A DNA stretch of 64,000 bases from an uncultured Flavobacteriaceae bacterium (GTDB lineage: Bacteria; Bacteroidota; Bacteroidia; Flavobacteriales; Flavobacteriaceae), in the NCBI GenBank assembly GCA_905479065.1, contig CAJQLB010000003.1, positions 1 through 64,000 of the forward strand. Direction: 5' to 3'. Made by a program: the position numbers and the translations under genes. Positions 8,012-51,116 of this stretch are shown piece after piece (the stretch's first letter is position 1; each line of letters begins with the position of its first letter). The notes under the pieces are model-generated. The model was not told the origin of the DNA. It saw only the letters and a list, made by a program, of their open reading frames with translations, and did no database searches.

Positions 8012-8080
8012 GTTTTAATTTTATAATTATTTCGAAACAACGTTCACGATTATCGCCAGAGGTTAACCCGAAATTGGGTG

Positions 8081-12212: not shown

Positions 12213-13634
12213 TTATTTAAATCGATAAGTTACTTTTTCACCATTTTGTTTTACTATTTCTATGCGCATTGGCTCATATGCCGACCGTTTCTCTAATAGT
12301 TGTTCAACTTGTTCAACTGTATTTAGCTTTTCACCATTTATAGCGGTCACAATACTTCCTTCATTTACGCCATCATCGATCCACTCACTTTGATATCGAT
12401 TATTAAGATTTGAAATAACTAAGCCATAATCTAAATTGTGTTTTTCAAGTTCTTCTTTGCTTGGCTTTTTCAGTGTACCAATTACAGCGATATTTACAGT
12501 CGTATTTTTATACAGTGTTACTGGGATTACTGTTATTTCTTGATCTCTCAAAATAGTTACGTTTACAATATCATTAGGTCTTTTTGTGCTTAAAAACCCT
12601 TTTAAATCTGCAAATTTTGTAATGTTTGTTCCATCAATTTTTTTAATAATATCTCCTCTTTTAAGTCCTGCTTTGTCTGCTCCTGATCTCTTTTGTACCT
12701 CACTAATAAAAAATCCTTCAGTTTCATTGACACCTAAATCTTCAGCATTTTTTCCATTGAGTTCACCTCCCATCACTCCAAGTATACCATTTTGGACGTT
12801 TCCAAATTCCATGATATCAGCGATAACTTTTCTGGCTATATTACTAGGAACAGCAAATGAATATCCAATGTAAGATCCCGTTTGTGATGTTATTGCCGTG
12901 TTAATACCAATCAGTTCTCCTCTTATATTTACAAGTGCACCGCCAGAATTTCCTGGATTGACAGCAGCATCTGTTTGAATGAATGATTGTGTATTGGTTC
13001 CTGTTTGATCTAAATTTCTTGATTTTGCACTTATGATACCGGCCGTAACCGTTGAATTCAAATTAAATGGGTTACCGACTGCTAGTACCCATTCTCCAAT
13101 CTTGGATGTGTCACTGTCTCCAAATGTTGAATACGGTAAATCATTATCTGCATTGATTTTTAATAATGCAATGTCTGTTTTCGGATCTGTCCCTATCAGT
13201 TCAGCATCGTAAGTTTTGTTGTTGTTAGTAGTTATCATGATGGATTCAGCACCTTCTATTACATGATTATTTGTTATGATATATCCATCTGAGGAAATGA
13301 TGACACCAGAGCCAGTTCCAATCTGGGGGCGTTGAGATTGTCTGCCAAAAAATAAATCTTCCATTGTCATTTGTCGGCGGCCTATGGCTGTGTTTTGAAC
13401 ATGAACAACGGTGTTAATCGTGTTTTCAGCAGCCGTGACAAAGTTTGGATTTAATGATTCTAAATTGACTGTGTTTGTTTCGTAATTTGCAACAACCTTC
13501 GGTGGTAGTTCAATCAATTCGTGAGTTTTTACAACAGTAGGTTTTTCCTCTAAAAAGTATTTGTAACTGCCCAAGGTAATGGCGCCACCTAATGCTGAAA
13601 CTAAAACAAGTGTTATTATTTTTTTCATGTTCAT
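12213..13634 (-). CDS. Do-type (DegP/DegQ-like) periplasmic serine protease
   Basis: A 473-residue envelope protease/chaperone that degrades misfolded exported proteins. It has an N-terminal signal or anchor (about 5-25). The trypsin-like domain has the triad His124 (TNNHVIEG), Asp154 (TDIALLKI) and Ser230 (PGNSGGAL). Two PDZ domains follow (about 280-375 and 385-470; the first begins GILGVMGGEL). It is single and divergent from dapF. Its upstream region carries three direct TTAAC repeats at 10-12-base spacing (GTTAA on its coding strand), described separately. Confidence 0.95.
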   Translation of the reverse strand: MNMKKIITLVLVSALGGAITLGSYKYFLEEKPTVVKTHELIELPPKVVANYETNTVNLESLNPNFVTAAENTINTVVHVQNTAIGRRQMTMEDLFFGRQSQRPQIGTGSGVIISSDGYIITNNHVIEGAESIMITTNNNKTYDAELIGTDPKTDIALLKINADNDLPYSTFGDSDTSKIGEWVLAVGNPFNLNSTVTAGIISAKSRNLDQTGTNTQSFIQTDAAVNPGNSGGALVNIRGELIGINTAITSQTGSYIGYSFAVPSNIARKVIADIMEFGNVQNGILGVMGGELNGKNAEDLGVNETEGFFISEVQKRSGADKAGLKRGDIIKKIDGTNITKFADLKGFLSTKRPNDIVNVTILRDQEITVIPVTLYKNTTVNIAVIGTLKKPSKEELEKHNLDYGLVISNLNNRYQSEWIDDGVNEGSIVTAINGEKLNTVEQVEQLLEKRSAYEPMRIEIVKQNGEKVTYRFK

Positions 13635-13658: not shown

Positions 13659-13735
13659 TTAACGAATAAAATTATTAAATTATTGAATTTGATGTTGAAT
13701 TTTAACGATTTTTAACGATGTTTTTAACATGTTAA
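13659..13735. promoter_or_regulatory. Phased TTAAC/GTTAA repeats between the Do-protease gene and dapF
   Basis: TTAAC occurs at 13659, 13702, 13712 and 13724 and its complement GTTAA at 13731. The sites at 13702 and 13712 lie inside a near-exact tttttaacgat tandem copy, 10 bases apart, and 13724 is 12 bases further. One-turn spacing of direct half-sites is typical of OmpR-family response-regulator binding. The sites lie 25-100 bases upstream of the protease start. The binding protein is inferred, not shown. Confidence 0.45.
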
Positions 13736-48719: not shown

Positions 48720-48732
48720 TTTCAATTAAAAT

Positions 48733-48790
48733 TTAACATTTTTGTTAAGGTAAGGTTAAATGCTCAATATACTAAATGTTAAAATGTTAA
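48733..48790. promoter_or_regulatory. Phased GTTAA half-sites upstream of the two-component system
   Basis: TTAACA-N4-TGTTAA (48733-48748) is an inverted pair. GTTAA then recurs in direct orientation at 48744, 48755, 48778 and 48786; the first step is 11 bases and the next 23, about one and two helical turns. The last copy overlaps the -7 box. This layout fits autoregulation by an OmpR-family regulator. The same half-site occurs upstream of the Do-protease gene. Confidence 0.45.
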
Positions 48791-48795
48791 TTTTG
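48788..48795 (+). promoter_or_regulatory. -7 promoter element of the sensor kinase gene, four bases from the ATG
   Basis: TAATTTTG matches TAnnTTTG, ending four bases before the ATG at 48800. It overlaps the last GTTAA copy, so a bound regulator would compete with polymerase. Confidence 0.5.
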
Positions 48796-48799
48796 AACA

Positions 48800-50395
48800 A
48801 TGAGTAAAAGGTTATTTGTCTTGTTAGTGGTACTAATGAGTCTGTCTTTGATAGGAATTATTTTTGTACAGGCGTATCACATTAACAATACGGTGAAGAA
48901 TGAAGAGGAACAGTTTACTGACAAAGTGAAGCGTGTTTTAAGCTCTACTGCCACCACTATAGAGGAATTAGAGTATAAGGAATATGCGTTTCGTTTCAGA
49001 GAGCTGATGGCAGAAAAGGGAGTTCAGGTTGATACCACTGATATTAGAAATTTGTGGATTATTCAGGATGATCTTAATTCAAACGAAACTCTCATTTACA
49101 GAAACGGAATTTTAGAGGAAAATTTTAAAATTCCATCGTTCATTGACATCGGTTTAGATAGTATTAATATTACACGAATATCGAATGAACGAGAAACACG
49201 TATTTCTAGAAAAAACAGTTACGACAACTTTGATGGGAATAGTAATGCAGCATCTTTAGAAGTGTCACCAGAAGCGTTGTTATTACAATCAGCACAAATT
49301 TCTCGAAGTAAAGAGGTGATGTTTGAAACAGCGTATAAAGATATGGCCAAACGGTCACCAATACATTTGCGTGTCTCAAGAAATGATTTATCGGATTTGT
49401 TATCCCAAAAGCTTACAGATAACAACATTGATATCACTTTTGAATATTCTATTTATCACAAGGATTTGGCAACAAAAGTTCAAACAGAAAATTTTGAATT
49501 GTTACAAGATATTTCTTACGGGGTTCCAATTTTTTTGGATAACAACGATGAGAGTGAATATAAGTTGTATGTAAATTTTCCTAAACGAAATCGCTTTATT
49601 TTATCATCTATTTTAGGATTGGCTTTGTTGTCAATAATTTTTACAACCATCATTATCATAGCTTATACGAGTGCCATTTATCAATTAATTAAACAGCGAA
49701 AGATAGCACAGATTAAAACGGATTTTATAAATAACATGACACATGAATTTAAGACGCCAATTGCCACCATAAGTTTGGCTTTAGATGCAATTAAAAATCC
49801 AAAAATTATTGGTGATGAGGATAAAGTGAAACGTTACCTTAAAATGATTAAAGATGAAAATAATAGAATGCACGCACAGGTTGAAAATGTTCTGCGAATA
49901 TCAAAACTTGAAAAAAATGAATTAAATATAAGTAAAGATCAAGTTGATTTACATGAATTAATTTTAGATGCCATCACGCACATTGAATTAATTGTTGAAA
50001 ATAGAAATGGTTATATTAATACAAATTTAGATGCAAAATTATCATCGGTGTTAGCCAATGAAACTCATTTTACTAATGTTATTGTAAATATTTTAGATAA
50101 CGCTGTAAAATATACAAATGGTAAACCAGAAATAAATATGACAACCGAAAATATTGGAAATAATATCATATTAAAAATAAGTGACCGTGGTAGTGGGATG
50201 ACAAAGTCAGTGTCAAAAAGAGTGTTTGAGAAATTTTACAGAGAGCATACAGGCGATGTTCATAATGTGAAAGGTCACGGTTTAGGTCTCGCTTATGTCA
50301 AGCGTATCGTCGATGATCACTCAGGTCATGTTAGTGTTGAAAGTGAAAAAGGACATGGTAGTACCTTTATTATTAAACTACCGTTAATATCATAA
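48800..50395 (+). CDS. Membrane sensor histidine kinase
   Basis: A 531-residue inner-membrane kinase. Two membrane helices (about 6-24 and 268-292) frame a periplasmic sensor of about 240 residues with no family I recognise. There is no clear HAMP domain; a short linker leads to the HisKA box with phospho-acceptor His315 (MTHEFKTPIA). The ATPase has NVIVNILDNAVKY, ISDRGSGM and KGHGLGLAYVK. The response regulator follows 7 bases later. The topology resembles envelope-sensing kinases; the signal is unknown. Confidence 0.94.
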   Translation: MSKRLFVLLVVLMSLSLIGIIFVQAYHINNTVKNEEEQFTDKVKRVLSSTATTIEELEYKEYAFRFRELMAEKGVQVDTTDIRNLWIIQDDLNSNETLIYRNGILEENFKIPSFIDIGLDSINITRISNERETRISRKNSYDNFDGNSNAASLEVSPEALLLQSAQISRSKEVMFETAYKDMAKRSPIHLRVSRNDLSDLLSQKLTDNNIDITFEYSIYHKDLATKVQTENFELLQDISYGVPIFLDNNDESEYKLYVNFPKRNRFILSSILGLALLSIIFTTIIIIAYTSAIYQLIKQRKIAQIKTDFINNMTHEFKTPIATISLALDAIKNPKIIGDEDKVKRYLKMIKDENNRMHAQVENVLRISKLEKNELNISKDQVDLHELILDAITHIELIVENRNGYINTNLDAKLSSVLANETHFTNVIVNILDNAVKYTNGKPEINMTTENIGNNIILKISDRGSGMTKSVSKRVFEKFYREHTGDVHNVKGHGLGLAYVKRIVDDHSGHVSVESEKGHGSTFIIKLPLIS

Positions 50396-50402
50396 GAAAG
50401 TT

Positions 50403-51116
50403 ATGGAAGAAGTAAACAAAAAAATTTTACTAGTAGAAGACGATCCTAATTTTGGGACTGTTTTGAGAGACTATTTAATGATGAATGACTATGACGTCGT
50501 ACATGCTAAAAATGGTATGGAAGGGTTTGAGAAGTTTAAAAGAGATGATTATGACTTGTGCATACTCGATGTGATGATGCCTTACAAAGATGGATTTACG
50601 CTTGCCAAGGAAATACGAGAAAAAAATACGGATGTCCCTATCATCTTTTTGACAGCCAAAGCCATGAAGGAAGATGTCTTGAAAGGCTATAAAGTGGGAG
50701 CTGATGATTATTTAAATAAGCCTTTTGATAGCGAGGTGTTATTGATGAAAATAAAAGCAATCATTCAACGCAAAGCCACTGACAGTGTCGCAGACAGTAA
50801 GCAATTTGAATTTGAAATTGGGAATTTTCATTTAAATTCTAAGTTGAGATTTTTAAAGTATAAAGGAGGAGATCCCACGAAGCTTTCACCTAAAGAAAAT
50901 GAGCTATTACGATTATTGGCACTTCATGAAAATGACCTAATGCCAAGAGAACTGGCATTAACAAAAATTTGGAGAGACGATAATTACTTTACCTCGAGAA
51001 GTATGGATGTGTATATCGCGAAGTTGAGAAAATATCTTAAAGTTGATGGAAATGTTGAAATTTTAAACATTCATGGGGAAGGTTTTAGATTAGTGGTAAA
51101 CCAAAATCTAAAATAA
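50403..51116 (+). CDS. OmpR-family response regulator
   Basis: A 237-residue transcription regulator, partner of the kinase upstream. The receiver has acidic pocket Glu12-Asp13-Asp14, phospho-acceptor Asp56 (LCILDVMMPYKDG) and Lys in FLTAKA. The C-terminal winged helix (about 135-235) has LSPKENELLRLLA and the recognition region TSRSMDVYIAKLRKYLK. OmpR-type regulators bind direct half-sites about 10-11 bases apart, as seen upstream of its own operon and of the Do-protease gene. Confidence 0.95.
   Translation: MEEVNKKILLVEDDPNFGTVLRDYLMMNDYDVVHAKNGMEGFEKFKRDDYDLCILDVMMPYKDGFTLAKEIREKNTDVPIIFLTAKAMKEDVLKGYKVGADDYLNKPFDSEVLLMKIKAIIQRKATDSVADSKQFEFEIGNFHLNSKLRFLKYKGGDPTKLSPKENELLRLLALHENDLMPRELALTKIWRDDNYFTSRSMDVYIAKLRKYLKVDGNVEILNIHGEGFRLVVNQNLK

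Follow-up and report, generated by a model that had tools for sequence, protein, structure and literature searches.

The window analysed here, 64,000 nucleotides of one contig from an uncultured Flavobacteriaceae bacterium, carries a cluster of GTTAA half-sites just upstream of a two-gene operon coding for a sensor kinase and a response regulator, and a second cluster upstream of a gene coding for a Do-type protease. This raises the question of which protein reads these repeats, and whether the two promoters belong to a single regulon. The sequence-only reading had proposed that they do, with the kinase/regulator pair controlling itself and the protease, and comparison with related genomes supports one such regulon comprising the operon and degP: the half-site is common to both promoters, is phased at 10-12 bp and stands 32-33 bp from a -7 box, kinase promoters in other orders carry arrays as well, and the degP array is absent from most regulator-less genomes. 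Phased direct repeats thus precede both the operon and its putative target, as a direct-repeat regulon would have them. It is likely, in our view, that the array is bound by the operon's own RprY-type regulator, which would activate both this operon and degP from about -45/-56.

The operon codes for two products:
48800..50395, plus strand: membrane histidine kinase gene, RprX-type, with HisKA and HATPase_c domains
50403..51116, plus strand: OmpR/PhoB-type response regulator gene, RprY-type, the proposed binder, with Response_reg and Trans_reg_C domains

The regulator exceeds the cut-offs of both domain models of the OmpR/PhoB response regulators (PF00072, 104.2 bits; PF00486, 55.8 bits). Its best NCBIfam model is RprY (NF051850), 121 bits ahead of the runner-up (162.9 bits), yet its score of 283.8 bits falls below the equivalog cut-off of 370, and it is therefore named RprY-type rather than RprY. 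Six proteins, namely five of five further orthologues tested and one relative, reach 281-348 bits with the same model. The regulator is not a CpxR by score (NF008199, 108.9 bits for a cut-off of 341). Moreover, the residues RSMDV in the putative recognition helix are invariant across 21 regulators.

The interval between coaE and the operon (48720-48799) harbors four plus-strand GTTAA and one inverted TTAAC, arranged with respect to the -7 box as follows (conservation refers to Flavobacteriaceae kinase promoters that have the core repeat):
48733..48737, minus strand: inverted accessory half-site (TTAAC), about -67, position kept in 69/117
48744..48748, plus strand: distal half-site of the core repeat, about -56, read from the sequence
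48755..48759, plus strand: proximal half-site of the core repeat, about -45, 33 bp upstream of the -7 box, this exact distance being found in 106/117
48778..48782, plus strand: third half-site, about -22, a GTTAA 33-35 bp past the first being present in 103/117
48786..48790, plus strand: fourth GTTAA, overlapping the -7 box and kept in 53/117, TAnnTTTG persisting where this copy is lost
48788..48795, plus strand: -7 box TAATTTTG of the kinase gene, ending 4 nt 5' of the ATG at 48800

The 11- and 23-base steps described earlier are correct (starts at 48744, 48755, 48778 and 48786, which adds a further step of 8), the last GTTAA does run into the -7 box, and the inverted pair consists of TTAACA (48733-48738) and TGTTAA (48743-48748). 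The inverted partner and the copy over the -7 box are present as claimed, but they are the less conserved elements and hence look accessory. Scans for sigma-70-type promoters and Rfam families gave nothing above chance at the kinase-promoter locus. Repeats could arise by chance in AT-rich DNA such as this window (about 33% GC), where a single GTTAA is common and the bare motif is not enriched (174 observed versus 240.6 expected). However, at least four GTTAA occurred in only 0.005%, and a step-11 pair in 0.15%, of 20,000 dinucleotide shuffles of 48720-48799, and four GTTAA within 80 bp of one strand are found at just two places in the 64 kb, the kinase and protease promoters, versus a mean of 0.04 and a maximum of 1 such cluster in 50 shuffled windows. 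With the conservation and fixed geometry given below, this makes chance hardly credible.

The second cluster lies at the protease gene, whose product scores 392.6 bits with the Do/DegP model (TIGR02037), below its cut-off of 416.2, and is termed Do-type here, the domain order being the fitting one:
12213..13634, minus strand: Do-type (DegP/HtrA) periplasmic protease gene, the proposed target, with trypsin-like and PDZ domains
13724..13728, minus strand: half-site of the degP array, about -66
13712..13716, minus strand: half-site of the degP array, about -54
13702..13706, minus strand: proximal half-site, about -44, 32 bp upstream of the -7-like box
13667..13674, minus strand: -7-like box TAATTTTA of degP, whose last base departs from the consensus G

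These half-sites, likewise read from the DNA itself, bear out the claim that the same GTTAA recurs here, although the steps differ slightly from 11 (minus-strand starts at 13728, 13716, 13706 and 13663; steps 12, 10 and 43).

The arrangement is widely conserved. In Flavobacteriaceae, GTTAA-N6-GTTAA is present in 117 of 126 kinase promoters, which comprise 48 of 53 regions from relatives, the window's own and 77 of 80 loci from named species (including Winogradskyella, Algibacter, Gramella and Maribacter) and are not independent, some records being of the same genome. In these promoters some 10 bp of poor conservation separate the core repeat from a second conserved block, in which the third half-site and the -7 box are found. 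This box lies 32 bp from the proximal half-site in nine of the 117, besides the 106 with 33 bp. Of 77 array-bearing degP promoters, 51 have a TAnnTTT(G/A) box at 32-33 bp from the proximal half-site, and only 17 a strict TAnnTTTG. Taking the -7 box as -12 to -5, the window's own pairs are at -56/-45 for rprX and -54/-44 for degP. Outside the order, 24 kinase regions of the class were collected; two have no ORF and two have another gene upstream (DUF3108, PorP/SprF), and among the 20 left, all with HisKA and HATPase_c domains, 18 carry phased arrays, which in some cases comprise four half-sites with steps of 11, 10 and 10. The degP arrays outside the order are often reversed, with a step of 10 rather than 11 (L428-L457, L479-L481 and L492).

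The -7 box also bears on the start of the kinase message, as in 103 of 126 orthologues only a few nucleotides separate its end from the ATG (4 nt in 81, 5 nt in 22). This box spans -12 to -5 in Flavobacterium psychrophilum, where only 5.5% of 890 mapped mRNAs are leaderless, according to the accessible part of that study (PMC9723704). Transcription would thus be expected to start at or beside the A of the ATG, and we predict from this spacing a leaderless kinase mRNA starting at the A of the ATG at 48800.

A further comparison is offered by genomes that have no regulator. Of 395 Flavobacteriaceae genomes sampled, 390 gave an RprY match, and four genomes of the family are devoid of both kinase and regulator (G038, G190, G231 and G360). 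A same-strand pair with a step of 10-12 within 250 bp, which appears in 0.9% of shuffles when either orientation is allowed, is found at degP in 65 of 69 regulator-positive regions of the family versus none of these four (Fisher 6e-5, uncorrected for ancestry, the genomes in this and the following counts not being independent). In other families of the order, some of which lack a close RprY match, the array is present in 11 of 14 genomes with a close RprY and in none of six without (Fisher 2e-3, ancestry uncorrected), five of these six protease matches being short homologues of 365-397 codons. At the class level, where either orientation was accepted, a looser count than the same-strand one of the family, and where "without" means no RprY match at 1e-45 and not proven absence, the figures are 20 of 28 versus 2 of 18 (Fisher 7e-5, ancestry uncorrected), or 20 of 27 versus 2 of 15 when genomes with an uncertain degP start are removed (G528, which gave no hit, G458, G469 and G505). 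The regulator-positive set includes 25 genomes selected for small size or divergent RprY, and two genomes were kept outside the contingency counts, both with an array present: G276, with no RprY at 1e-50 but a matching kinase fragment, and G059, whose best RprY match is at 44%. There are exceptions in both directions. A same-strand array is missing from 8 of 84 regulator-positive degP regions of the family and order, among them G059, which has no close RprY, and an array in either orientation from 8 of 28 in the class; the two class genomes with an array at degP despite no detected RprY are G484 and G488. In G038, dapF still lies beside degP, and the operon and the array are both missing. No dapF is found beside degP in G190, G231 and G360, so promoter exchange could explain the loss of the array there; the array is kept in 16 of 19 operon-positive family genomes where dapF was not seen.

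Since the array occurs at both promoters, is shared by remote relatives and is mostly absent from genomes devoid of the gene pair, it is probably the binding site of the pair's own regulator. The alternative, that a different OmpR/PhoB-family regulator reads the arrays at both promoters and that the operon is one of its targets instead of supplying the binder, is quite unlikely. Several such regulators exist per genome (12 matches to the query in G000), seven of the 12 GTTAAA-N5-GTTAAA sites in the four regulator-less genomes are still intergenic, and sites upstream of other genes show other geometries. However, the degP array is missing without kinase and regulator even though other regulators of the family persist in those genomes, the array occupies the operon's own promoter across the class, and in Porphyromonas gingivalis binding of RprY to its own promoter has been reported.

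The latter result comes from an EMSA; the promoters of groES, dnaK and clpB were also bound by the P. gingivalis protein, which the accessible part of the report describes as a repressor of chaperone genes (PMC3646045). A repressor bound close to the -7 box, and silencing its own operon and possibly degP, would also suit the two kinase-promoter half-sites nearest this box (one at about -22, one overlapping it). We nevertheless hold repression to be unlikely here, as conservation is highest for the upstream pair (about -45/-56), whose distance from the -7 box is fixed in both promoters, and only 53 of 117 kinase promoters retain the copy that overlaps this box. Moreover, a TTG 8-35 bp upstream of the -7 box is present in only 25 of 117 kinase promoters, which together with the fixed distance suggests activation. 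Given that P. gingivalis RprY binds its own promoter yet is called a repressor, we only infer the binder and the sign of control in the present system, as we do the envelope signal.

Activation by the RprY-type regulator would then proceed as follows. The kinase would sense an envelope signal and phosphorylate RprY, which would sit head-to-tail on the direct repeat at about -45/-56, with a step of 11 in Flavobacteriaceae and mostly 10 or 11 elsewhere. Regulators of the OmpR family bind as head-to-tail dimers to direct repeats spaced by one helical turn. Bound RprY would aid RNA polymerase at -7-box promoters, and the operon and degP would both be switched on.

Several known systems offer parallels. 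In PhoB/PhoP-type promoters, too, half-sites are repeated in tandem at a spacing of one helical turn ahead of the core promoter, but the half-site sequence and the offset of 32-33 bp to a TAnnTTTG box are different here. In enterics, CpxR controls degP, and CpxRA shares with the present system a kinase/OmpR-type regulator pair, a direct-repeat box and, as proposed here, its own operon and a DegP-type protease as targets. The CpxR box is GTAAA-N4-8-GTAAA in the accessible text of PMC5063474, whereas the half-site here is GTTAA at a fixed distance from the Bacteroidota -7 box; the system is thus likened to CpxRA in its proposed working, its regulator not being a member of CpxR. It also resembles RprXY of Bacteroides and RprY of Porphyromonas, given its best NCBIfam model and the binding of the own promoter reported in P. 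gingivalis, though it scores below the equivalog cut-off. As far as the available portions of these papers go, rprX/rprY is the only two-component system for which essentiality is reported in B. fragilis 638R (PMC4072883), P. gingivalis is without rprX (PMC6032018), the targets reported for its RprY differ from those here in being chaperone genes, ahpC and nqrA, and the two RprY papers searched for a binding motif name none. A literature search covering few subscription papers returned none that combines GTTAA, Bacteroidetes and a response regulator and none that joins RprY with DegP; the box may be printed elsewhere.

The genome-wide search for the shared motif suggested by the earlier reading was run, and its bare-repeat counts were uninformative, with 17 GTTAA-N6-GTTAA in G000 versus 28 for the reversed control. 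The stricter GTTAAA-N5-GTTAAA gave 133 sites versus 88 for the reversed control in 20 genomes, and 12 versus 14 in the four regulator-less genomes (all summed by hand). We examined 122 of the 133, the other 11 being nine presumed degP sites and two in G041: 97 are intergenic, one lies over an ORF end and 24 are inside ORFs, whereas a single GTTAAA in the same loci is intergenic in 76 of 516 cases. The recurrent neighbours are genes coding for an outer-membrane beta-barrel protein, a CAP-domain lipoprotein, LytTR/rpsF, a MoxR-type ATPase and DUF4442/DUF4870 proteins. In G000, seven of eight GTTAA-N6-GTTAA sites examined (out of 17) are intergenic, five of them before recurrent genes including rprX (two matched by eye). 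The other sense-oriented sites have a strict TAnnTTTG at 33 bp in just one of 51 rows, and reverse-oriented sites (73 rows) have this box at 27 bp in 12 cases or at 37-38 bp in 14. These similar repeats are only candidate RprY sites. Assigning every GTTAAA-N5-GTTAAA to RprY was rejected, since the intergenic sites of the regulator-less genomes remain, none of them before a recurrent target.

The broadest proposal, which to us stands evenly balanced, is that GTTAA-N5/6-GTTAA with its proximal half 32-33 bp from a -7 box would be the RprY box of the Bacteroidia, belonging to an ancient envelope-quality circuit, a counterpart of CpxRA, that drives itself (through a leaderless mRNA in Flavobacteriaceae) and degP, the reverse sites at 27 or 37-38 bp adding the outer-membrane beta-barrel protein and other genes. 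The box, the fixed promoter geometry, the core target and the naturally operon-less genomes would make the role of the system in envelope quality control directly testable.

Some further observations concern individual loci. The reversed form, TTTAAC-N5-TTTAAC, shows a second fixed phasing before the outer-membrane beta-barrel gene and others (L152, L154, L163, L189, L194, L225 and more). The rpsF/LytTR site was dropped as a second test of co-loss: only 2 of 30 genomes showed a pair, and none of the four regulator-less genomes yielded the LytTR neighbour. At least 13 of the 24 in-ORF sites share a single position, some 430 bp ahead of a receiver-PglZ gene, which we take to be porX; there, GTTAAA-N5-GTTAAA lies within an HD-domain gene from which the receiver-PglZ gene is divergent (L142, L158, L169 and at least 10 others), reflecting either coding constraint or a site. 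In one genome, four related genes coding for lectin-like type IX-secreted proteins each have a sense array about 66-68 bp before the ATG (L223, L224). Finally, an L19-Flavobacteria ribosomal protein leader (Rfam RF03130) was identified at 8038-8065 of the window, on the minus strand.
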